Virus record (IMG/VR): IMGVR_UViG_3300047379_000201
Location: 1-27,119 of that record
Source: a virus
Direction: 5' to 3' (one strand)
DNA length: 27,119 nucleotides
Shown here: positions 1 to 12,685 of the stretch, piece by piece
How the letters are laid out: the number at the start of each line of letters is the position of its first letter
Numbering within the stretch: the first letter of the stretch is position 1
Made by a program: the position numbers and the translations under genes
The notes under the pieces: model-generated
What the model was told of the DNA's origin: nothing
Database searches by the model: none
Seen by the model: the letters and a program-made list of their open reading frames with translations, nothing else

Positions 1-2635
1 CTACAATAATACCGTTTTCATCAAACATACTATTATATTCTATGTTAGCAAGTCTCTTTACTTCATCAGGTGATGCTGCTTTACCAAGGCGTTGTATCTC
101 ATCCATAGCACGGAAACGAGCTTGTGCATTAGCGACATTAGCACTTGTGTAACCATCAAAACCAGTAAATGTATTTGGAATGAATCTAAATACAGGGTCT
201 GCTTCCATTGCTTTAAGATTATCATATAAATCTACAACATATTGAAACCCATATCTACCATTATCAGCTTCAATCTGTGCAATTTTTCTGTACCCATCAA
301 TTTTAGCTTCATTCTTAATTACAAAATCTAACCTAGTAGCATCTTTCACACTGTTAGGATTTTGTGATGCTTTCATAAACATCTTACCAGCATAAGGTAT
401 TGCTTTTTTTTGTGTATCTAAGACAGCACTATAAGCCATCCAGCCACGTTGTACTGATTTAAGATCTTTACGCATTAAAGCACCTGTAAGATAACTTAGT
501 GGTTCTGCTACCATACCACTTAAATTACCATATAGAGCTTTAGCACTAGAAGTTACAGAAAACAAAGAGTTATAAAAATTACCTCTAACAGCTTGTGCTA
601 AAATATTAGGTGCTTCAGGATTACCATCAACAATTGGACGCCACCTAACAAAAGTATTTAGAATATCTTCATTCATTTTAGTGATACTATTGATCTTACC
701 ATCACTAGCCTCATATAACTCAAGAAATCCGTCAAGAACTTCTGGGTTATTTTCTTCTAAATACTGCCAGTTTTGGGTAAACCGATCACTTTCGTCTTGA
801 ATAATACGTAAAGCTTGTGGTGATTGTTCAATAATCTCTTTGTTTAGTTGTTCTGGTGTCTTACCAAATGCACGAACACGCTCACCTAAAGCCATGATAC
901 CACGTTTCTTATCTACATAATACTCGGTAGTTCTTTTTAATTGTTGTAGGTAAGCTAGGTTATCACGTACTTGTTGTTTAGCTTGATCAACAGCAGCTGA
1001 TCCTCGGTTAAGCCTAATACCTTCAGATAGATCAGAAATTTGACCAGCAATTGACGTGGCACTATAAGCTTGTGCTTTTGCAATATCCATACCAGTAAAC
1101 TGCTCAGCTTGATCATCGATCATCCTGAAGATACCTCTGTATCCTTCATCAGTTAATTCTTCCAAACCAAATTGATTTTTTACAATAACAGGATCAAGAA
1201 TCTTACGAATTTCATCTACACCAACAGTAGGGTCAAACAATTCAAGTACTAAGTTATCACCTTGTTCTTGAATTTCATCAAAACTAATTGCCCAATCAGC
1301 TGCATCAACACGATAACGATCAGCATCTTTCAGTTGTTTAGCAAGACCAACAGTAACTTGTTCGACACCACCTGGTGTATTAATAGCAAACTTACGTGCA
1401 GGTTCACTAATAAAGTTACCTAAACGACCATAAACTGATCCTTTGTTTTTTGCAACACGTACTGCATCAACACTAGCACCAATGATACCAAAATCATCCA
1501 AAGAACGCATCCCAACTTCATTCCAATCATAAACGTCGTTTACACCTTTCAGTGGGACGTTAGAATTAGGATTCATAGCTTGATTGTAGTAGCCAAGCTC
1601 ATCAAGATCTGCCTCTTGTTTAGCAGCATATCTAGAAAGTTCTTCTACTAAATCATCACTTTTAGCAGCTGGCTGCATACTATCGATAATTTTCTGTGCT
1701 TTTGATGTTTCACCTATAAGTTTAGGTTCTTGTATAATACCTGATCCAATTTCACCTAAACTACGTTTTAGGTTTCCTAAAGATCCTACAAAAGGAAGCA
1801 AAAACCCTAATGCTAAACCTTCATTAATGTTTTTAATACGTTTTTCATCTGAACTATCTTTATCTAATGTAGCAAAACTATCAGGAATAAAATCAAATTG
1901 TGCTGGTAATTTTGACGTTAAAGATTTGTATAGTCCAGATTTTTTAATAGAACCAGAAAGATTTTCACCTTCAGTTTCAGAACTGATAGCATCTACAAGT
2001 ACACCAGAACCACCTTCAATACCCCTAGTTCCAAGAAACTTCATAAAGGCAGTATTACCTAACCTATTGATTGCGTTACCAGCTCCAAGTAAATTAGTAG
2101 TTGCAAATTGTGCTCTAGTAGCCAGTCCCATACCAACACGTTGAAGAAATAATGTAGGCGCAATAACAGAAATAATGCTTCGTACAGTCTGCGCTAAATC
2201 ATTTTCGTACTTAGATGCTTTAGGGATTTGTAATCCTGTCTTAGACAGTAGTTTATTGGCAAAATCAGTTGGGAAGTCAATTAAACCTTGGACTTCTTTA
2301 AAGTCTAATTCTCTTCCTTCACGCTCCAAGCGTTCATAATCAATGTTTCCTTCAGGAGTCCTGTAAGGAGTGTTTGGTGCACCTACAAGTTTAGTAGGTG
2401 GTTGCTGTTCCGTTGGTACCTCACCCGTAGGTGCAGGTTGTTCAATTGTTGGTGTAGTTTGACCTCCCGTAGGAGGTTGTGTCTCTTGTTGTTGAAGCTG
2501 CTGTTCTTCTTCCTCATAAGAAGCAATTCTTTGTTGAATTTCTTCTATTTGTTCGTTAGTAAGTTGTAGATCAGCTTCTTGTTCATCTAACACATATTCA
2601 CTACCAACATTTGAATAATCTAATGGATCGTTCAT
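1..2635 (-). CDS. gp16: Internal core protein, gp16-like (partial, C-terminus outside window)
   Basis: I translated 878 open codons from the ATG at 2635-2633 to the window edge with no stop, beginning MNDPLDYSNVGSEYVLDEQE. The first 110 or so residues are acidic and rich in Gln, Pro and Thr, so probably disordered. Hydrophobic stretches follow (near TVRSIISVIAPTLFLQRVGMG and a later GLALGFLLPFVGSLG), then a long helical body. By position (last of the gp14-15-16 series) and size this is the T7 gp16 equivalent, the internal core protein ejected into the cell to help carry DNA across the envelope. T7 gp16 carries a lytic transglycosylase domain at its N-terminus; I see none here, and a hydrolase domain sits instead at the end of the preceding gene. 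There is no Shine-Dalgarno; the leader is A/T rich. The assignment rests on synteny more than on sequence. Confidence 0.8.
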   Translation of the reverse strand, partial: MNDPLDYSNVGSEYVLDEQEADLQLTNEQIEEIQQRIASYEEEEQQLQQQETQPPTGGQTTPTIEQPAPTGEVPTEQQPPTKLVGAPNTPYRTPEGNIDYERLEREGRELDFKEVQGLIDFPTDFANKLLSKTGLQIPKASKYENDLAQTVRSIISVIAPTLFLQRVGMGLATRAQFATTNLLGAGNAINRLGNTAFMKFLGTRGIEGGSGVLVDAISSETEGENLSGSIKKSGLYKSLTSKLPAQFDFIPDSFATLDKDSSDEKRIKNINEGLALGFLLPFVGSLGNLKRSLGEIGSGIIQEPKLIGETSKAQKIIDSMQPAAKSDDLVEELSRYAAKQEADLDELGYYNQAMNPNSNVPLKGVNDVYDWNEVGMRSLDDFGIIGASVDAVRVAKNKGSVYGRLGNFISEPARKFAINTPGGVEQVTVGLAKQLKDADRYRVDAADWAISFDEIQEQGDNLVLELFDPTVGVDEIRKILDPVIVKNQFGLEELTDEGYRGIFRMIDDQAEQFTGMDIAKAQAYSATSIAGQISDLSEGIRLNRGSAAVDQAKQQVRDNLAYLQQLKRTTEYYVDKKRGIMALGERVRAFGKTPEQLNKEIIEQSPQALRIIQDESDRFTQNWQYLEENNPEVLDGFLELYEASDGKINSITKMNEDILNTFVRWRPIVDGNPEAPNILAQAVRGNFYNSLFSVTSSAKALYGNLSGMVAEPLSYLTGALMRKDLKSVQRGWMAYSAVLDTQKKAIPYAGKMFMKASQNPNSVKDATRLDFVIKNEAKIDGYRKIAQIEADNGRYGFQYVVDLYDNLKAMEADPVFRFIPNTFTGFDGYTSANVANAQARFRAMDEIQRLGKAASPDEVKRLANIEYNSMFDENGIIV

Positions 2636-2643
2636 GTTGTTTT

Positions 2644-5472
2644 TTAATTAGTTAGTTCTTCTCGTGCAGAAATTAAAGCCGCACGTACTTGATCACGGCT
2701 AATACTAGCTTTATTTACACCATCTTCATAATAACTACGGCCATTTTTGTATTCAATTGAAGCAAATTCTTGAGACAATTGATCAATAGCTAATTCGATG
2801 TCATCACTATTACCTTGTAAATACTGACCAATAGCCTTACGACCAGGCTTATTCATAATGGTTGCTATAAACATCTTTTCTTGGTTTTCAAGAGTAAACT
2901 TAGCATCAGGAGGCAATCCTGCTAGTTTAGCAGCTTTTTCAGGATATAAAAATTGAAAAGCGCCAACTGCTGCTGAAGCACGTCCATCACTTAATTTAGA
3001 CTTTTGAAAGTCTACCAGTTCTGTAGCAATAGTCATATCTAACATTTCTGGATAGTTTTCGCTAGGGAACATTGAAGTAGCACTTCCTTCACCAGAACTG
3101 ACTAAATTTGCTAAACCACGTAATCCAGTACTTTGACCAGTCATACTAGCTCTCACAGGTAGGTTATTACGACCACCTTGACTATTAGTAATTTCAGCAC
3201 CAAGTCTGTTAGCTCTGTTAAAGGTACGATTGGGTATATCGTTATAGAGTTTTTGAACTTCTGGGGCTAACTGATATACAGCATCTTCAACAGGATTAAC
3301 TTCGTTTGCGACAACAGGCTCTCTCATAGATACCCTATTAACTGCACCTATGCTTGCATTATAAACTTCTCTAGGAGTCATAGGACGTTTAGTACGTTGT
3401 GTAATCCTAGATATTTTCATAATTTCAGCTGTATATTCTACGTTTAAAGGATCCTTTTGAATTTGATCTGAAATACGTTCGTAATCATTTTGATCCCCCA
3501 AAGCATAAGGCATGTTAATAACACTTGCTGCATTAAAGTTTCTATCTGCAAGCAGTTTGTCTAATGTTTTAGTACTTTCTTTATTTTGTTTCACTTGGGC
3601 TTTAATTTCAGCATTACCAAATAAATTAGGAAAGTTAGGTACATTGTTTGGTGAATCAGGATCTTTATAAAATAAATTTGTTTTATCGTTTGGTGCTTTT
3701 GCTAAGTACTCCTTTAGGTTATTTACAGAATATTCAGAAATAAATTCTCGTTTAACGCCTTTTTTTTCAGCTTCTAAAGCATATTCTTCTGCTTTATTTT
3801 GCATAGCAATTAACAGAAAAGTAGTTGTTGTATTAATACTACCATCAACAGTTGGATTAAAACCAGCTACAGAAATAGCTTTAGCTTTTAAACTTTTTAA
3901 AACTTTAGGAAATTCAGTACCAAACCTTTTGGCTTGTTGCTCTTTAAATATAGCCTGATATTTGGCCTTTGTAGCAGGGTTCTGTATCGTAGCTATTTCT
4001 TGTTCAGTAAGAGGAACTGTACTTGCAAGCCTCACAGCAAAAAGGTTTTCTTCTTTTTCAATATTTTTAGCAATTGCTACTTGTTCTGCTTGTATTAAAG
4101 TTTGTGGGTAAGGTACTCCAGGGAATTTTTGTGGCCATAAAGCTTTAAATGATTCAAATATCAATGGATCACGTTCGTCGCTTTCTTTATCAGTAAGGGC
4201 CATAAGCTGCGGTATCGCAACAAAACGTGTAAAATCTTTAGCGTTTTGTGTATACTCTGCTTGCTCATCAATTCTAAATTGACGTATACCTTGGTTACGG
4301 TCACGTAGAGCTTGTAAGTAAGCTTGCGAAGGTTTATTACCTCCTTTACCCCCAAAAACTTCACCAAAAGTTTTACCAAAACTAGGTACGAAAACATTAT
4401 TTATATCATCAATTGAAAAATTTGGTTCTCCAGTTCTAGGATCAACAGCTGAAAAAGCCGTATAAAACCTTTTAAGAGCGTTTTCTCTGCTAATGATAGG
4501 ATTAACTAGATCAGATTGCAAAGATGCACCCAACGTAGATACGTTTGTTCTTAGGAAATCAGCTTGTTCAGCTTGTTTTTGAAAATTAGCTGAAGTTTCT
4601 TTTGTTGAAGCATTATTTACAAGAGCATCCTGAATCCCTTTAACTTTTTCATAACCTTCTTGATAGTATCCAGGGTTTTTATCACTCAACCCTAATTTAT
4701 CAAGACTTGTTTCTAAAGAATATTGTGTAACAAGACCCATTTTGTTTGAGTCTTGTAAGGCTTCAATAGGAGCAAAACCTAATTCAGGGATTACAGCAGT
4801 GCTTTGTAGTAATTTTTTTGTATTAGAGTTATAAAATAATTCTAAAGCCTCATTTTTAAATGCTTGGTCATAGACAGCATTTCTACCAGGATTAGCGAAA
4901 AAATCTTTAGAAGCTTCCTTAGGTGTAATTTCTCCACTAGAAAGCCCTTCAAGTGTAAGTCCATCGAGTTTAGCAGTCTCTTCTGGACGAAGGCTTTCTA
5001 GATTTTTATACTTAACTTGTGCTTCTGGATTACTGTAAAAAGCATCTCTAGCGGCTTTCTGAGCTAACCTAGTTTGATCAGCAATCATCTGCTGGGTTCT
5101 TTTAGCAGAAATTTTACCAATAGTTTGACTGAAATCAATTAAACCAGTGACAACTTTTTCTAATTCTTCATTAGGATCTTTTCTATTTTGTATTGCAAAT
5201 CTTTCTTCAGCTTGAGATTTAGCTTGTTGCTGTTGTAGTGCTTGTTGTTCACTTTGAAAGTTACTTTCACGTTGAGTTGCCTCAGCAGCTTGGTTCTGCT
5301 GCATTGCCTGTAAATTACGTTCTCTTTGGGAGATTTCAGCATTACGTCTGCTTTCTAAGTTTCTAATTACTCTGTTGTTTTCTTCCTGCATACGAGTAAT
5401 ACCAGCACTACTTAGTTGAATAGGCTGAAATCCTCTTGGGTTTGTAGCAGGCTGGTATCGTAGTCGTGCCAT
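2644..5472 (-). CDS. gp15: Internal core protein, gp15-like, with C-terminal peptidoglycan hydrolase domain
   Basis: This 942-aa protein lies between gp14-like and gp16-like genes, the place of T7 gp15 (747 aa), an internal core protein ejected at infection. Residues 1-110 are a charged Gln/Glu/Arg-rich coiled coil; the middle is mostly helical with few recognisable motifs. Residues about 784-920 look like a muramidase or lytic-transglycosylase domain. LVSSGEGS has a candidate catalytic Glu at 795, SAAVGAFQF (to 841) matches the G-x-Y/F-Q-F substrate-groove motif of phage peptidoglycan hydrolases, and a later QEFASI segment is also typical. The domain would locally open peptidoglycan during DNA entry. 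T7 places this activity at the start of gp16, so the domain seems to have crossed a gene boundary. The structural role is well supported by context; the hydrolase call is by motif only. Confidence 0.85.
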   Translation of the reverse strand: MARLRYQPATNPRGFQPIQLSSAGITRMQEENNRVIRNLESRRNAEISQRERNLQAMQQNQAAEATQRESNFQSEQQALQQQQAKSQAEERFAIQNRKDPNEELEKVVTGLIDFSQTIGKISAKRTQQMIADQTRLAQKAARDAFYSNPEAQVKYKNLESLRPEETAKLDGLTLEGLSSGEITPKEASKDFFANPGRNAVYDQAFKNEALELFYNSNTKKLLQSTAVIPELGFAPIEALQDSNKMGLVTQYSLETSLDKLGLSDKNPGYYQEGYEKVKGIQDALVNNASTKETSANFQKQAEQADFLRTNVSTLGASLQSDLVNPIISRENALKRFYTAFSAVDPRTGEPNFSIDDINNVFVPSFGKTFGEVFGGKGGNKPSQAYLQALRDRNQGIRQFRIDEQAEYTQNAKDFTRFVAIPQLMALTDKESDERDPLIFESFKALWPQKFPGVPYPQTLIQAEQVAIAKNIEKEENLFAVRLASTVPLTEQEIATIQNPATKAKYQAIFKEQQAKRFGTEFPKVLKSLKAKAISVAGFNPTVDGSINTTTTFLLIAMQNKAEEYALEAEKKGVKREFISEYSVNNLKEYLAKAPNDKTNLFYKDPDSPNNVPNFPNLFGNAEIKAQVKQNKESTKTLDKLLADRNFNAASVINMPYALGDQNDYERISDQIQKDPLNVEYTAEIMKISRITQRTKRPMTPREVYNASIGAVNRVSMREPVVANEVNPVEDAVYQLAPEVQKLYNDIPNRTFNRANRLGAEITNSQGGRNNLPVRASMTGQSTGLRGLANLVSSGEGSATSMFPSENYPEMLDMTIATELVDFQKSKLSDGRASAAVGAFQFLYPEKAAKLAGLPPDAKFTLENQEKMFIATIMNKPGRKAIGQYLQGNSDDIELAIDQLSQEFASIEYKNGRSYYEDGVNKASISRDQVRAALISAREELTN

Positions 5473-5484
5473 AGTTAATTTTAA

Positions 5485-6846
5485 TTATTTATTGATAGCC
5501 TTCAAGAGTTCATCGAGCCCAGGTGGTGGTTTTGGATTAAAAGCTTCATAAACATTTGCACCTGCTGTAACAACCCCTAGACCTTGTTGAATGATATCAG
5601 AAGTTGAAGGTTGTCCTGAAGGTATAGGTGCTTGTGGTCCTAAAAGATCTTCAAAACTTACGTTAGGTGACGGTAAGAAAACTCGTTCAGGAGTGATTTC
5701 TGGATATGGTGCATATTCAAGTTGTGTTGGCATAACACCCACAGCAGCTTCAGCTTGAAGATCTTGGCCTCTTCTTTGCAACTCAATCGCTGCAATATCA
5801 CGTTCAGTTTGAGCAATACGGCTTTCTCTGTTAGCTTGTAATACTCTGTTATTAAATTCAGCTTCTTCGTTAGCAAAGCTAATAGCTTGATCAATTCTAG
5901 CAATATCAATGCCAACTTGTTTTGTTTGAAGACCTGCCGTAACTCTAGCAAATCTAGTTGCTTCATCAATTTTATTAATATTAAGATTAACACCAGTCTC
6001 TCTAACTGCTGAGTCAACATTTAGATTTAATAGTTGAATACCAGCACTACGTCTAGAACCTTTTAAAGCTGATTCTAATTGAGTCAAGGTTCTAAAGGAT
6101 TCAGCCTGAGCAGATTGTATACTTTTACCTCTTGACTTACCAGCTTGCCCTAAAGCAGCTTGACCTGAATCTTGGATTGCTTTAATAGAAGCAGCTTCTT
6201 TTTCAAAGGCAGTTCTATTGTAAAGATTTTTCAGTTCAGTTTGAATACTTTCAGTTTGAATACGTCTATTACTTTGTATACCAAATAAATTTGCTTGTTG
6301 TTGTAATTTATCAAGACCTAGATCAGTAAGTGTATTTTCAAACCCTGTTTTAATAGTTTCTAGTCTGACTTCTTGTGTTTCTCTATTTAAACCTTGGTTA
6401 ATTAATTCATTTTGAAGATCTGCATAAATAGCTTCACGTTGAAATGCTTGATCTATTTCAAAATCTTTGAAAGCAGCTTGTGTAGTAGCAATTGCTAATT
6501 CAGCAGCTTCTTCATTTAAACCTAATTGAGCTTGTGATATTCTTAACCTTTCGTTATAAGTAGCTAAAGAGGCTTCATACTGGAAATCTTGTATTTCTTT
6601 GTCACGTTCCCAACCTTTAACAGCAGTGTCAAAAGCATAATCTCTATTATTATAGTAATTTTCTTTTTCAATTGCATCTTTTTTTTCATTATAATCGTTA
6701 ATATCATTTGCTCTTCTTCGCGCATCTTTTCGTTGCTCTATTTGCGCTCTTTCTTGATCGTCGTTAGCGGCACTGTTGTTACCAAATAAAGTGGTTCCTA
6801 ATGCGGCTCCGGCACTCACGACTGCACCAATTGCTGCTGCTGGCAT
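5485..6846 (-). CDS. gp14: Internal virion protein, gp14-like
   Basis: This 453-aa protein follows tail tube B and precedes the gp15-like gene, the T7 gp14 position. Residues 2-25 form a Gly/Ala-rich hydrophobic segment (AAAIGAVVSAGAALGTTLFG) like those that let gp14-type proteins insert in the outer membrane after ejection. Residues 28-360 are almost continuous charged helix with many Gln, Glu, Arg and Ala, a long coiled coil. The last 70 residues are Pro-rich with a second small hydrophobic patch (GLGVVTAGANVYEAF). It is more than twice the length of T7 gp14 (196 aa). The start ATG lies 2 bases after the stop of the upstream gene. Function is inferred from position and the membrane-active N-terminus; sequence identity to T7 is not evident. 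Confidence 0.75.
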   Translation of the reverse strand: MPAAAIGAVVSAGAALGTTLFGNNSAANDDQERAQIEQRKDARRRANDINDYNEKKDAIEKENYYNNRDYAFDTAVKGWERDKEIQDFQYEASLATYNERLRISQAQLGLNEEAAELAIATTQAAFKDFEIDQAFQREAIYADLQNELINQGLNRETQEVRLETIKTGFENTLTDLGLDKLQQQANLFGIQSNRRIQTESIQTELKNLYNRTAFEKEAASIKAIQDSGQAALGQAGKSRGKSIQSAQAESFRTLTQLESALKGSRRSAGIQLLNLNVDSAVRETGVNLNINKIDEATRFARVTAGLQTKQVGIDIARIDQAISFANEEAEFNNRVLQANRESRIAQTERDIAAIELQRRGQDLQAEAAVGVMPTQLEYAPYPEITPERVFLPSPNVSFEDLLGPQAPIPSGQPSTSDIIQQGLGVVTAGANVYEAFNPKPPPGLDELLKAINK

Positions 6847-6848
6847 AA

Positions 6849-9413
6849 TTAAGCCCTCCTATAATATCGAGGTGAATAGTTTCCTTCCCACATCATCTCT
6901 ACAAGAGATACAGGATATGGATAATCACTTGTCATTTTTAATTCAAAGTTAGTGTTACGTTGATGGATAGGTACATTAAACTTATATTCAGGTTTTACAG
7001 GACTTGTACTAAATGCATAATCATCACTTAATGTTACCTCTTTAATTAAAGTCCATTGTTTAGAGCTACCTAATTTAGTTTCAAATACCAGTGGACCTGA
7101 TCTACCAGTAGATATTTTAATTCTAGCAATAGTTAATATAGCACTAAAGTCAACAGAGTTGCCATCTCTTCGTCTAAAATAAAATGTAGGTAATTGTACT
7201 TCAAAGTGATAGTTATAGCCAATAATAATACTATCAGCTGCATCGCTTAAATTTCCTACAGCTTCAAAATAGTTATAGTTTGTATTGGCTTCAATTTTAG
7301 GTGTTACTTCTACAAAAAAGCCTGCATCTTTATCAGGTTTACCGATTAAAAGTGCACCTTTTTTATTTTTGATAGGTTTATAAGGTGTGTAGATTTTAGT
7401 TACATTGTCAGTTGGGATATAAACAACTTTATCGATAATTCCATCAGGAGATTTTGGGAGTGAAAACAAATCAAGACATGGATTACCTGTTACAACAAAC
7501 TCATTATTAGAATCGAGTACAACAGAAACATCCCCTGTAGGTAACTCATTAACTGTAATTGAGTTTAACAAATACGCATCTTCTTGTTGTGTTACAACTA
7601 CAATGTCATCGTTTAAAACGTAAGCATCTTGAATAGTACCTGTTAATTCCCATTTTGTCCAAGCTTGAAATAGATCTTTTTCACCATCATTATAATAACT
7701 ATACATATAGATATAAGACGATTGTCTATCTATAAGAATAATGAAAGAGTTTTGTGGACTAGAAACTAATCTAGCAACAGTTTCAGGGATCCATTCAAGA
7801 ACAACTTTACTGATGTCTACAACAATAGGTGGTTGTTCTACATCTCGTAACTGCATACTAAATACTTTAGCATAATCAGGTACTTTGTTAACAAAACCTA
7901 CAGTAGTCCCAATATCTACAGGAGATATATTACTATCCATTTCATAGTTAGATACTGTACGGATAATAGAAGACGTAGGTGTCAATGTATTTGCATCAGT
8001 AGCAGATAAAATAAACTGCTGTCGATCACCAAATAACAAAAGACCTTGAGCTGTAGGTAAGACATCAAATAACGTAACAGGTCTTGTACTAGATACATTT
8101 AAATCAATAGGATCTGAAGCAATTTGTGTTAAAGCTGATTTAACAAAGAAGTTAAAAGGTTCATTAGCTACACTTAAGATTACATTATCTTCTGATAACA
8201 AACCAAATCTGTTGTTATAAAAAAATGTAGCCTTGATTGTTTTACCTATAAAGGAAGGTGCTGGACTTGTAATGTCATCACCAACTAGCCTACTTACAAA
8301 AGGTATAGGTTCAAATGTAAATTGATCTACACCATTAACTGTATTATTAAATACAAACCTATGTGGCATTGTGGATGCATCTAGTCCAGGTGAACCATCT
8401 CTAGCAATTGTTTCAAGCCAATAACCTTTACCACGTATTCCATCATAAGCTACATATTTAACATAGTAATCATCACTATCACTATTAGTATTTAAGATGC
8501 GTACGTTATGACCATCAAAAGATTCAGCAGGTAGTTCAGTTACATCATTAACTTGATCTAAAAATGCTTCTAAAGACTCATTATTAAAACCACCTCTAGC
8601 ATCAATACTAAATGCTAAGGGAGTACCAGTAACTGCACTGTAATCAGTTTTAACTGTATTAGTACCAGTACCACGTTTGATGACAATACTGTTGTTATAA
8701 CCTTCTAAATACCAAATACCATCAAAATTTGTATTACCTGCTGTATGTTCTGCTTCAATAGTATCTTTAATAGCATCAATTAAATGATGGTTAGTATTAA
8801 CATTAGAAGCATCATACAACAACATATCATTAAATGTTGTATTTGTTTGTGCTGCTACTTCTGCTACTACATCGTCTGTATTGTTAGCAGCAGCAGCAGG
8901 GAAGGTTACAGTATAATTGTAGCCATCAACAAGTGAAACTAATTTTAAAGTACCTACTGAATTAGCAAAAAAAGTACCAGCTGGTAGCATTGCTGTAACT
9001 TTAGTTTTGTTTGTAATGATTGTTGTATCTTGAATACTACGGAAATGAAAATCATCTGAAGTATTAGCGTTTGTTAAATACGAACCACCATTGTTTGTAA
9101 CATTACATGCTTTACCTGTTTCTGCATTCCAAGCATAAATATTAGAACCTTTAATAGCAGCTACATAAGAAGTGGTTTGACTGCGATCCAGAAAAAACCA
9201 TACAGCATCTTCTAAAGCAGCTTTATCATAAGCATTGTCGTCTGTATCTTTTAAGTGATCAATAAATTTCATACCAGGTCTTTTTAGTAGACCATAGGTA
9301 GGGTCAGGATAACCATTAATACATTCTGATACCTGACCAGCTAGTTTTTTGTCATCGTTTTGTTTAGAGACACCACCTAGAAAATTAGGTGATAGTTGGG
9401 TTACTACTGGCAT
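6849..9413 (-). CDS. gp12: Tail tubular protein B, gp12-like
   Basis: This 854-aa protein is a good match to the T7 gp12 family (794 aa), the nozzle of the short tail. The N-terminus is diagnostic: a QLSPNFLGGVSKQ segment followed by ECINGYPDPTYGLLKRPG, the conserved 'GVSxQ' and 'N..P....G...RPG' pattern at the start of the nozzle protein. The body is beta-rich and full of Asn, Asp and Thr, as expected for its propeller architecture. The end, GNYSPRYYRRA, has the usual basic C-terminus. Its ATG overlaps the stop of the tail tube A gene in a TAATG junction, so the two are probably translationally coupled, fitting their assembly as adjacent rings below the portal. Confidence 0.93.
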   Translation of the reverse strand: MPVVTQLSPNFLGGVSKQNDDKKLAGQVSECINGYPDPTYGLLKRPGMKFIDHLKDTDDNAYDKAALEDAVWFFLDRSQTTSYVAAIKGSNIYAWNAETGKACNVTNNGGSYLTNANTSDDFHFRSIQDTTIITNKTKVTAMLPAGTFFANSVGTLKLVSLVDGYNYTVTFPAAAANNTDDVVAEVAAQTNTTFNDMLLYDASNVNTNHHLIDAIKDTIEAEHTAGNTNFDGIWYLEGYNNSIVIKRGTGTNTVKTDYSAVTGTPLAFSIDARGGFNNESLEAFLDQVNDVTELPAESFDGHNVRILNTNSDSDDYYVKYVAYDGIRGKGYWLETIARDGSPGLDASTMPHRFVFNNTVNGVDQFTFEPIPFVSRLVGDDITSPAPSFIGKTIKATFFYNNRFGLLSEDNVILSVANEPFNFFVKSALTQIASDPIDLNVSSTRPVTLFDVLPTAQGLLLFGDRQQFILSATDANTLTPTSSIIRTVSNYEMDSNISPVDIGTTVGFVNKVPDYAKVFSMQLRDVEQPPIVVDISKVVLEWIPETVARLVSSPQNSFIILIDRQSSYIYMYSYYNDGEKDLFQAWTKWELTGTIQDAYVLNDDIVVVTQQEDAYLLNSITVNELPTGDVSVVLDSNNEFVVTGNPCLDLFSLPKSPDGIIDKVVYIPTDNVTKIYTPYKPIKNKKGALLIGKPDKDAGFFVEVTPKIEANTNYNYFEAVGNLSDAADSIIIGYNYHFEVQLPTFYFRRRDGNSVDFSAILTIARIKISTGRSGPLVFETKLGSSKQWTLIKEVTLSDDYAFSTSPVKPEYKFNVPIHQRNTNFELKMTSDYPYPVSLVEMMWEGNYSPRYYRRA

Positions 9414-11724: not shown

Positions 11725-11803
11725 CCTCTCTAGAAGCCTCCACAAGCCCCGTTCCATGCTTATGGTGTCATGCGTCCCGAAGGATGAACGGACGTGCTTC
11801 TAG
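11725..11803 (-). promoter_or_regulatory. Glutamine riboswitch, Downstream-peptide motif type
   Basis: The RNA folds as a three-stem junction. P1 is CCGTTC (11791-11786) with GAACGG (11754-11749). P2 is TCC-TTCG-GGA (11784-11775). P3 is CATG (11772-11769) with CATG (11758-11755). The P3 loop segment CCATAAG (11765-11759) pairs with CTTGTGG (11746-11740) just after P1, a 7-bp pseudoknot with one U-G pair. An outer 8-bp stem CTAGAAGC/GCTTCTAG (11803-11796 with 11737-11730) encloses everything and runs into the GAGAGG ribosome-binding site. The CGTTCATCC...GGACG core, the pseudoknot and a very short downstream ORF are hallmarks of the cyanobacterial and cyanophage Downstream-peptide RNA, shown to bind L-glutamine (Ames and Breaker). 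An alternative pairing CGTCC/GGACG would break P1, a plausible second state. Folded by eye. Confidence 0.83.
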
Positions 11804-11864: not shown

Positions 11865-12236
11865 TTAAAATTTGTACTTAACTCCTGCTTTAACAGTTGT
11901 TCCGATAGGCTCCCCTAGATCCATACCACCGCTAGTCAAGAATTTAAATTCACTATAAGCACCAAGACGCTCACTAAGTTGTGTCTTAATACCTACTTTA
12001 CCAGAGGCTTCAGTAGTTGTTGCTTTACCGTCAGGCATTACAAAAGCAGGTCCACCTTGGATATAATATTTTGTTGATTCACTGAATTCTCCTTCATAAC
12101 CAACATCATTACGCAACACTGTTTTATTAAAATCTACACCAGTAGACTTAGACTCACTTTCAATATTTACGTAAGGACCAGCCATTACAGGAGTAGCAGC
12201 AATCAGGGTTGCAGGGAGGATAGCAAGAATTTTCAT
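11865..12236 (-). CDS. Signal-peptide protein, predicted small outer-membrane beta-barrel
   Basis: This 123-aa protein starts with a clear Sec signal peptide (MKILAILPATLIAATPVMA, probable cleavage after the AxA-like VMA at residue 19). The mature part alternates polar and aromatic/hydrophobic residues (STKYYIQGGPAFVMP, KVGIKTQLSERLGAYSEFKFL) and ends AGVKYKF. That is the pattern of an OmpA/OmpX-like barrel with a terminal Phe. A phage-made envelope protein could block superinfection, alter the surface or assist lysis. Its ATG overlaps the stop of the lysozyme-like gene (ATGA), suggesting coupled expression with that enzyme. I do not recognise a named family; similar short proteins seem to recur in cyanophages. 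Confidence 0.8.
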   Translation of the reverse strand: MKILAILPATLIAATPVMAGPYVNIESESKSTGVDFNKTVLRNDVGYEGEFSESTKYYIQGGPAFVMPDGKATTTEASGKVGIKTQLSERLGAYSEFKFLTSGGMDLGEPIGTTVKAGVKYKF

Positions 12237-12685
12237 TGTAATTTATTTAAAAAAGAATAAGTGTATTTTGTACGGTTACCATGAATACCCCAGCCTAACC
12301 AGTAGTAAGCAGCATTCATATAATAACGTACTGTTTGATGATTAGTTTGAAAAGCATAGAGATCTTTTCTAAACCTCATCTCATTAATCATGTAATCAGT
12401 TTGACATTGAAGACCACTAGGATCTTCGTTACGTTTAGTACAATGGTTACCAAGACCAATGTAACGATGTTTAGATGTCCATTGAATTAAACCATAACCA
12501 CCACGAAGGCAGCGATCGTAAGGAACGATAGCACCACCCTCGCATACGTTAGGTTTAAAATTAGACTCTTGTTGGATGTTACCCAGAATGACTGCTAGTG
12601 CTGTACGGTCTTTCACACCAGCAGAAGCCTGTAGTTGTTCTAGAACGTACTGCTGAGGTGCAGTACATTGTGGGCATTCAATCAT
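12233..12685 (-). CDS. Lysozyme-like peptidoglycan hydrolase (tail-lysozyme family)
   Basis: This 150-aa protein carries the pattern of the phage tail lysozyme / Phage_lysozyme2 fold. VILGNIQQESNFKPN has the catalytic Glu candidate at residue 40 within a 'N.x.ES' motif; GGYGLIQWT is the substrate-groove motif; an R(Y)xxL segment follows. Six cysteines, including CPQC at 4-7, suggest disulfides or a bound metal. No signal peptide is present. It is probably the endolysin, since no other free-standing lysozyme or amidase is seen in the window, but a virion role is possible because it lies among structural genes. It starts in an ATGA overlap with the 49-aa basic gene and ends in another with the signal-peptide gene. 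Confidence 0.75.
   Translation of the reverse strand: MIECPQCTAPQQYVLEQLQASAGVKDRTALAVILGNIQQESNFKPNVCEGGAIVPYDRCLRGGYGLIQWTSKHRYIGLGNHCTKRNEDPSGLQCQTDYMINEMRFRKDLYAFQTNHQTVRYYMNAAYYWLGWGIHGNRTKYTYSFLNKLQ

Follow-up and report, generated by a model that had tools for sequence, protein, structure and literature searches.

Here we describe what is probably an exchangeable enzymatic tip on an ejection protein of a marine T7-like cyanophage. The window (the whole stretch of DNA analysed, 27,119 bases) is a linear virus record, IMGVR_UViG_3300047379_000201 of IMG/VR, with T7-like genes on the minus strand. The protein in question is its gp15-like internal virion (ejection) protein of 942 residues (2644..5472, minus strand), whose open reading frame (ORF) is flanked by an ORF in the gp14 position and by a gp16-like gene. 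The C-terminal cassette of this protein, about 165 residues long (778-942; 2647..3141, minus strand), was delimited by fold, homology and block replacement in relatives and is lambda-lysozyme-like. We consider it likely, with a probability of roughly 0.8, that this segment is the enzymatic, exchangeable tip of the ejection protein and has been replaced by recombination between related phages.

An earlier note on this DNA, made from the letters alone, had pointed to SSGEGS and GAFQF motifs in the final 160 residues of the gp15-like protein and had taken them for signs of a peptidoglycan hydrolase. Both motifs were confirmed at these sites (residues 792-797 and from residue 837, respectively), and their presence at the C-end is, judging from the sequence and the model, more than chance. 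When residues 768-942 were modelled together with ten homologues, AlphaFold (AF2) returned a lambda-lysozyme-like domain (pLDDT 84.9, pTM 0.80). Structural alignment of this model by VIA-align placed the baseplate hub of cyanophage A-1(L) first (8kea; Z 11.7, 144 residues, 4.2 A), followed by lambda lysozyme (1am7 and 3d3d; Z 10.8 and 9.8), and the next row scored 4.0. A profile of the domain also found 8kea_A in PDB (E 0.0015); the antibody chains that came next, at E of at least 0.16, were taken as noise. The tip is therefore predicted, from this model, to have the lambda-lysozyme fold. A search of PDB with the whole protein gave a single match, which was judged to be chance.

In sequence searches with the whole protein, 13 phage records matched, solely within residues 781-941 and at 31-34% identity; some were annotated as lysozyme-like or amidase (e.g., the 'lysozyme-like domain protein' of S-CRES3) and others as hypothetical. 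The tip was matched best by the corresponding C-end of the protein in the gp15 position of Synechococcus phage S-SRP02. We propose Glu795, in the GEG of SSGEGS (codon 3088-3090, minus strand), as the catalytic glutamate. It was unchanged in all 14 rows of the tip alignment (A3), GEG was present in 13/13 members of the tip's cassette cluster, and in the model GEG lies at the end of helix 16-28. Glu795 and Glu19 of lambda lysozyme, which we take to be the catalytic residue of that enzyme, have the same offset from the starts of the aligned ranges (model 14.., chain 5..), as read from the range ends. The tip is accordingly predicted, from model and alignment, to be a lambda-lysozyme-type glycosidase or lytic transglycosylase that would cleave glycan strands; lytic transglycosylases of this type presumably correspond to GH104. 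The view that the gp15-like protein ends in a peptidoglycan hydrolase is thus probably right. The ratio of nonsynonymous to synonymous substitution (dN/dS) over the last 150 residues was below 0.35 in 15 of 16 pairs and 0.95 in one little-diverged pair.

A scan with the tip domain yielded 70 loci (relatives are referred to by locus number, L). The best 29 (L150-L178, 47-99% identity) have it at the end of an ORF, and a gp16-like ORF was detected next to it in 28 of them; about a dozen of these loci are contigs that our set already contained. No gp16-like neighbour was detected at the weaker 41 loci (30-50% identity).

Comparison of the window with its close relatives L022, L023 and L088 by blastn revealed the borders of the cassette. 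DNA identity was 83-87% up to approximately position 3140-3151, no match was found over the cassette, and identity resumed at 92-94% from approximately 2650, just before the gp15 stop. The DNA match across the cassette was likewise absent in 12/12 pairs, which were not random but picked among the closest pairs with different cassettes. In 11 of these pairs the upstream match ended 343-696 bases before the gp15 end (L056/L064 gave the downstream side alone), and in all 12 homology restarted between 20 bases before and 31 bases after that end; some pairs were also patchy within the gp15 body or had no homology downstream of gp16. Over residues 1-760, the body of the gp15-like protein is 73-75% identical to those of L022, L023, L024 and L088, and these four carry three other enzymes. 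Conversely, tails 56-73% identical to the window's are found in L068, L077, L020 and L080, with bodies that, if they match at all, are far more distant, and five pairs involving two cassette types have tails 96-98% identical on bodies only 27-32% identical. In one locus, L019, the body, tail and gp16 are all nearly the same as in the window.

The tips were also discordant with a tree of gp16. For this quick tree, in which some long branches are poorly placed, 86 of 110 rows were kept (near-copies with the same cassette were removed), and L150-L219, which had been found via the cassette, were excluded against bias. The cassette labels required at least 51 changes, compared with a minimum of 22 and a mean of 66.3 after shuffling (0/200 shuffles as low), implying that tips are inherited in part and replaced often. 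The cassette class of the window (11 rows) required nine changes, of which at least eight were forced by well-supported branches. Because fine labels split related families (M23 into five) and so inflate the count, changes were recounted in five coarse groups; 27 were needed, against a shuffled mean of 43.5 (lowest 38). Sixteen changes crossed from glycan-cutting to peptide-cutting labels or back; the peptide-cutting ones include an M23 class (M23a) that may be inactive. Gp16 pairs with different tips were found at high identity: 1/19 pairs at 99% or above, 5/11 at 98-99%, 6/9 at 97-98%, 1/12 at 96-97% and 14/23 at 95-96%, and the share was 0.67-0.69 in the bins from 85 to 95% identity, where 0.91 would be random and the pairs are not independent. 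The gp16 proteins of L022 and L023 are 98.6% identical and adjoin different tips, as do other pairs in the range of 97-98.6%. On this sequence evidence, it is more apt to regard the gp15 C-end slot as a site of exchangeable hydrolases, which were repeatedly swapped while the flanking genes stayed nearly the same.

The repertoire of this slot is large. Loci were collected by gp16-based scans and from the 13 phage records, and the ORF upstream of gp16 was obtained in 119 of 146 loci, the window among them; 27 were left out, having no usable gp15 upstream of gp16, and two further loci, L130 and L145, were dropped for their short tails, leaving 117 for clustering. Clustering was based on the last 115 residues (earlier tails of 175 residues had merged classes through the common gp15 body) and gave 23 sequence clusters, including lysozyme-like, SleB-like, M23 and M15 enzymes. 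Representatives scored above the Pfam cut-off for SLT, SLT_3, Glucosaminidase, Phage_lysozyme2, Peptidase_M23 and Peptidase_M15_3, and at the cut-off for Hydrolase_2. Classes that had no Pfam match above the cut-off (LyzA, LyzB, LamR, M23a, M23b, M23c, M23f, M15d, M15e and the Syn5 type) were named from weak Pfam hits, PHROGs, fold and motifs seen by eye; the window's own cassette group is among those with no Pfam match. One pair, L133 and L140, was given no class. In the 12 classes tested for loose catalytic-type motifs, no member lacked them.

Several cassettes had unusual features. The canonical M23 motifs are HxGxD and HxH. In the M23-like cassettes of L007, L038, L039, L043, L053, L055, L058, L061, L070, L083, L088, L100, L101 and L113, QPG[IV]D and SIDF replace them. 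By eye, the usual ligands are thus missing in 14 of the 15 loci of this class; L064 was not judged. Such cassettes may be pseudo-enzymes and might serve to activate an amidase of the host. The gp15 C-ends of L045, L067, L086, L095 and L081, in which a TSTGPH-like motif comes first and HGIDYG and LHG motifs come last, resemble M23 peptidases in circularly permuted form; the M23 profile matches L045 with its first half alone, weakly (E 0.0021), at the very end of the protein. Two enzyme domains were found in tandem in L013 (5895-6704; Glucosaminidase and M23), L014 (5048-5857; SLT_3 and, by eye, an M15-like end), L102 (6175-6984; SLT and M15_3) and L106 (6146-6955; SLT and, by eye, an M15-like end).

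Around the observed sequences, gene positions, block replacement and tree discordance, and the predicted fold, we infer the following course of events. The tip would be joined to a tube-forming gp15 body through a linker containing the motif RASM. Copies of gp15, carried in the internal core, would be ejected into the periplasm and build a tunnel there, and the tip would cut glycan strands at this stage so that the tunnel and gp16 may pass the peptidoglycan. Recombination between related phages, possibly via homology in the upstream gp15 body and at the gp15 stop/gp16 start, would swap the tip and yield near-identical phages whose tips differ, in some cases also in fold and bond specificity, which selection may favor.

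Several points weigh against this interpretation. Pfam and NCBIfam searches of the tip domain gave no match, and plain Foldseek of the model gave none at E<=0.001, such that the fold assignment depends on VIA-align and sequence profiles. By Pfam, no enzyme was found in five groups (P-SSP7, P-SSP2, L110 with L114, L111, and L112), and therefore the tip is not universal. The body model matches T7 gp15 with Z<8, no higher than unrelated chains, and sequence profiles gave no T7 gp15 match. The close swapped pairs are metagenome contigs. The M23a cassettes, by their motifs, look inactive, and the purpose of a tip may thus not be catalysis in every case. Finally, for the nearest structural match, the A-1(L) hub, the accessible part of the report names a lysozyme domain and describes activity for the endoglucanase and peptidase domains (PMC10966104).

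The last two points would also suit an unlikely alternative, in which the tip, a pseudo-enzyme with a wall-binding or structural role, holds the tunnel in the peptidoglycan and does not cut it: a class occupying the same slot has lost its usual zinc ligands, and the lysozyme domain of the hub is not among the parts that the accessible text reports as active. However, the invariance of Glu795 and its GEG context in the tip alignment and the catalytic-type motifs throughout the 12 classes tested speak against it, and a dead anchor would not require so many hydrolase families. With regard to P-SSP7, whose gp15 (L009, 6559-9072) has no Pfam hydrolase in its last 270 residues, the protein ends in repeats like NAIGYFVWDGKEWVRSGQ.

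The earlier note had a different origin in mind, namely that the transglycosylase of T7 gp16 had moved to the end of gp15 by a shifted stop/start boundary or by domain transfer. We regard this as improbable for the window. The surroundings are as the note described them: residues ~41-80 of the gp16-like protein form an N-terminal stretch rich in Gln, Pro, Thr and Glu, and the gp15-like and gp16-like genes (2644..5472 and 2..2635) are adjacent on the minus strand. A second hydrolase within gp16, which would have argued against the note's view, was not found by Pfam in the full-length gp16 of L019 (1325 residues, 98% identical over the 878 residues available in the window), nor in the whole gp16 proteins of the cultured phages L016 and L007 or the first 1300 residues of that of L022, although a hydrolase too diverged for Pfam might be missed. 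However, descent from gp16 was not borne out: the tip profiles (A2 and A3) gave no significant match to T7 gp16, and the gp15 end and the gp16 frame stay adjacent whatever enzyme precedes them (within -25 to +42 bases in 116 of 119 loci). The proposal nevertheless has a literal counterpart in four relatives. The gp15 C-ends of L047, L065, L066 and L069 are 35-38% identical to the N-terminal transglycosylase of T7 gp16 (residues 23-118; best E 4e-13) and were the only ones among the tails tested with a clear homologue of it. In this SLT class, the DNA order (gp15 body, hydrolase, gp16 body) is the same as in T7, with the stop/start on the other side of the enzyme, and a boundary shift or transfer is therefore possible there. 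With at least 51 cassette changes among relatives, any single shift would be of little weight for the window. We can only infer that placement of the domain might affect the order of ejection, as the note had also suggested.

It is very unlikely that the tip is the phage's lysis endolysin, made within gp15 or released from it. The C-terminal 270 residues do match phrog_90 'endolysin' (E 9.4e-8), and standalone homologues of the tip exist whose N-terminus looks signal-like by eye (L003 5860-6489, L004 5839-6495 and L005 11866-12474), the short separate gene adjoining an annotated endolysin gene in two cyanomyoviruses (L003 and L004). The window, however, has a separate lysozyme-like ORF of 150 residues upstream of the capsid gene (12233-12685, minus strand; Phage_lysozyme2, PF18013, E 3.5e-14), which by sequence is a candidate lysis enzyme distinct from the gp15 tip, and the best domain relatives are at ORF ends, 28 of 29 with gp16-like ORFs detected next to them. 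Lastly, assembly chimeras, which the origin of the close swapped pairs from IMG/VR contigs could suggest as a source of different cassettes on near-identical neighbours, are most improbable, as the same pairing of gp16 and cassette is seen again in other records, forming 22 groups (at least two of these contain a single isolate entered twice), eleven cultured phages alone span nine cassette clusters (seven with a recognised enzyme), and the homology gap lies at one place in every pair chosen for comparison.

In the reading we favor, of an exchangeable tip, the rest of the protein is a conserved body (residues 1-773; 3154..5472, minus strand), recognized by identity to relatives and from an AlphaFold model that is mostly helical (pLDDT 77, pTM 0.43). 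Alignment of this model with seven core-protein entries of T7, PhiM1 and E1004 had a similar register (Z 5.5-6.6, and 5.8-6.6 for T7 gp15 and the PhiM1 core proteins), but three unrelated chains scored 6.7-6.9, and therefore the alignment is no proof of a gp15 fold; the protein is gp15-like by gene position. The junction motif RASM (residues 774-777; 3142..3153, minus strand) marks where DNA homology to relatives with other cassettes stops in blastn. R.S[MFI] occurred in 41 of 86 rows within the 115-residue junction region, compared with a body rate of 0.019 per 115 residues; this stricter motif count was used because a looser pattern also picked up, in some rows, a site within the lysozyme. 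We considered the Met of RASM as an internal start and rejected it: the Arg codons of the loose motif set were not biased to AGA/AGG beyond the body, and the Met varies.

A further feature lies on the gp16 side of the seam. In residues 41-80 of gp16, four-fold third positions agree at 0.85 and 0.74 (0.47-0.67 in other bins), and amino acid identity is lowest in the same bins (0.36 and 0.35). These conserved third positions of a Gln/Pro/Thr-rich linker are explained better by a hairpin with a C(UACG)G loop than by selection on the protein. Based on loop, conservation and folding, the window has two such hairpins in the linker, both on the minus strand: ACCTCC(TACG)GGAGGT at 2462..2477 and CACC(TACG)GGTG at 2422..2433, which fold with z -3.3. 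With a stem of at least 4, the hairpin was present in 42 of 46 clade loci (57 copies, 100-300 bases after the gp15 end, often two in a row), compared with one in 546,174 other bases, and when synonymous codons were redrawn an average of 1.03 of the 46 loci had it (maximum 4 in 200 draws). Outside the clade, it occurred in 5 of 40 rows (L008, L095, L096, L110 and L111), and also in S-RIP1. Among CTACGG sites, 57/78 in the region had a stem of at least 4, versus 1/83 elsewhere, and stem pair 2 covaried (C-G 37, T-A 19, G-C 20 of 78). The reverse-orientation hairpin was not found in that region, and Rfam at gathering scores had no match to the hairpin. A scan of viral contigs with one 14-mer of the hairpin gave at least 120 stretches, estimated to be at chance level, and was not used.

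Tips changed at 4.4 per unit branch length in the hairpin clade versus 1.2 and 1.1 in two clades that have no hairpin (based on three and two changes only). The ends of some shared-cassette blocks are close to the hairpins (L022/L031 at +231, L088/L039 at +244), and other blocks end earlier (+106 to +121) or run on (L048/L056). The window also codes for a gp2.5-like annealing protein and an exonuclease. It is conceivable, though doubtful, that the gp15/gp16 seam is a dedicated exchange locus, with annealing recombination between the RxSM linker and the gp16 5' end, that the hairpins mark or promote the 3' crossover or tune gp16 expression, and that diversity is kept by hosts or competing phages that block particular hydrolases.

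The surrounding genes identify the window as a contig of a T7-like cyanophage. Its minus strand encodes RNA polymerase, single-stranded DNA-binding protein, primase/helicase, DNA polymerase, exonuclease and ribonucleotide reductase, and a structural set of portal, scaffold, capsid, tail protein and nozzle followed by the ejection-protein genes. The gp12-like tail nozzle (6849..9413, minus strand; PF25675, E 2.9e-167) adjoins the ORF in the gp14 position (453 residues; 5485..6846, minus strand), which was assigned by position and matches phrog_20153 (unknown function, E 1.8e-26). The gp16-like internal virion protein (2..2635, minus strand; phrog_6651 'internal virion protein', E 2.1e-109) is represented by its first 878 residues and is open at the contig end; it matches 25 phage records, each from a cyanophage or an uncultured marine phage. 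The order of the gp14-position, gp15-like and gp16-like genes is common to the window, S-SRP02 and other cyanopodovirus records. In S-RIP1 (L006 6623-7414 and 7417-10620; 263 and 1067 residues) and S-CBP3 (L014 5862-7031 and 7085-9676; 389 and 863 residues) the gp16-like gene is annotated as two ORFs, either a natural split or a sequencing error. A Glutamine-II riboswitch aptamer (RF01704, 42.8 bits), the sole Rfam match in the window, lies upstream of the capsid gene (11741-11793, minus strand).

Virion enzymes with a part in wall opening are commonly seen as an invariable component of the ejection machine. In these phages, the body appears to be kept and the cutting tip changed, sometimes between glycan- and peptide-cutting types and even next to a neighbouring protein that is 97-98% identical. 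This makes it testable whether wall entry is limited by the bond that is cut or by host inhibitors and wall modification, or is indifferent to them, and natural near-isogenic pairs are supplied for such a test. In addition, the seam provides well-defined natural fusion borders for virion lysins.

A lysozyme on a gp15-like protein is itself already known; what appears new here is the exchange of cassettes at the slot. Among the literature matches listed, which covered few subscription papers, neither the hairpin nor a repeated exchange of hydrolases at this slot was reported, and the accessible parts of PMC9860041 and PMC3765740 report no such exchange. For an internal core protein of cyanopodoviruses, the tree disagrees with those of most other core genes, according to the accessible text (PMC4646655). 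The gp15-like proteins of K1E and K1-5 hold a lysozyme, and such swapping is called a theme in the part of that article available (PMC8954989). Pseudomonas phage phiKMV gp36 has a C-terminal lysozyme (muralytic) domain, as stated in an extract of the source (PMC5380687). Like the window's protein, it is an internal virion protein whose gene is directly upstream of a gp16-like gene, but it has no match to the window's cassette profiles, and the phiKMV record also names an endolysin domain in gp37. By its motif, we take the gp36 domain to be a T4-type and not a lambda-type lysozyme. In Pectobacterium phage PhiM1, the octameric ejection protein (OEP) has a lysozyme-like domain (residues 718-903) in the cryo-EM structure, as given in the portion of the report at hand (PMC11440229). 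PhiM1 and the window thus share a gp15-like ejection protein bearing a lysozyme-like domain, known in the window from sequence and prediction, and they differ in that the same portion places an endolysin-like domain inside the gp16-like TEP of PhiM1, whereas Pfam found none in the gp16 proteins scanned here, where it might miss such a domain.

The N-terminal lytic transglycosylase of T7 gp16 would do the same job as the window's tip at the same gp15/gp16 seam, but it belongs to another family and is encoded beyond the stop/start, on the gp16 side. Lambda lysozyme R and the lysozyme domain of the A-1(L) hub resemble the tip in predicted fold (Z 9.8-11.7) and in the position of the proposed catalytic Glu. 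Lambda R is a free lysis enzyme, and the A-1(L) domain, unlike the tip, is part of a contractile-tail hub. Several lysin types reportedly occur in the tail modules of related long-tailed phages, as in an enterococcal survey (PMC10194240). The present case differs in that exchange was counted on a tree, its borders were mapped in DNA, and the carrier is a podovirus ejection protein.

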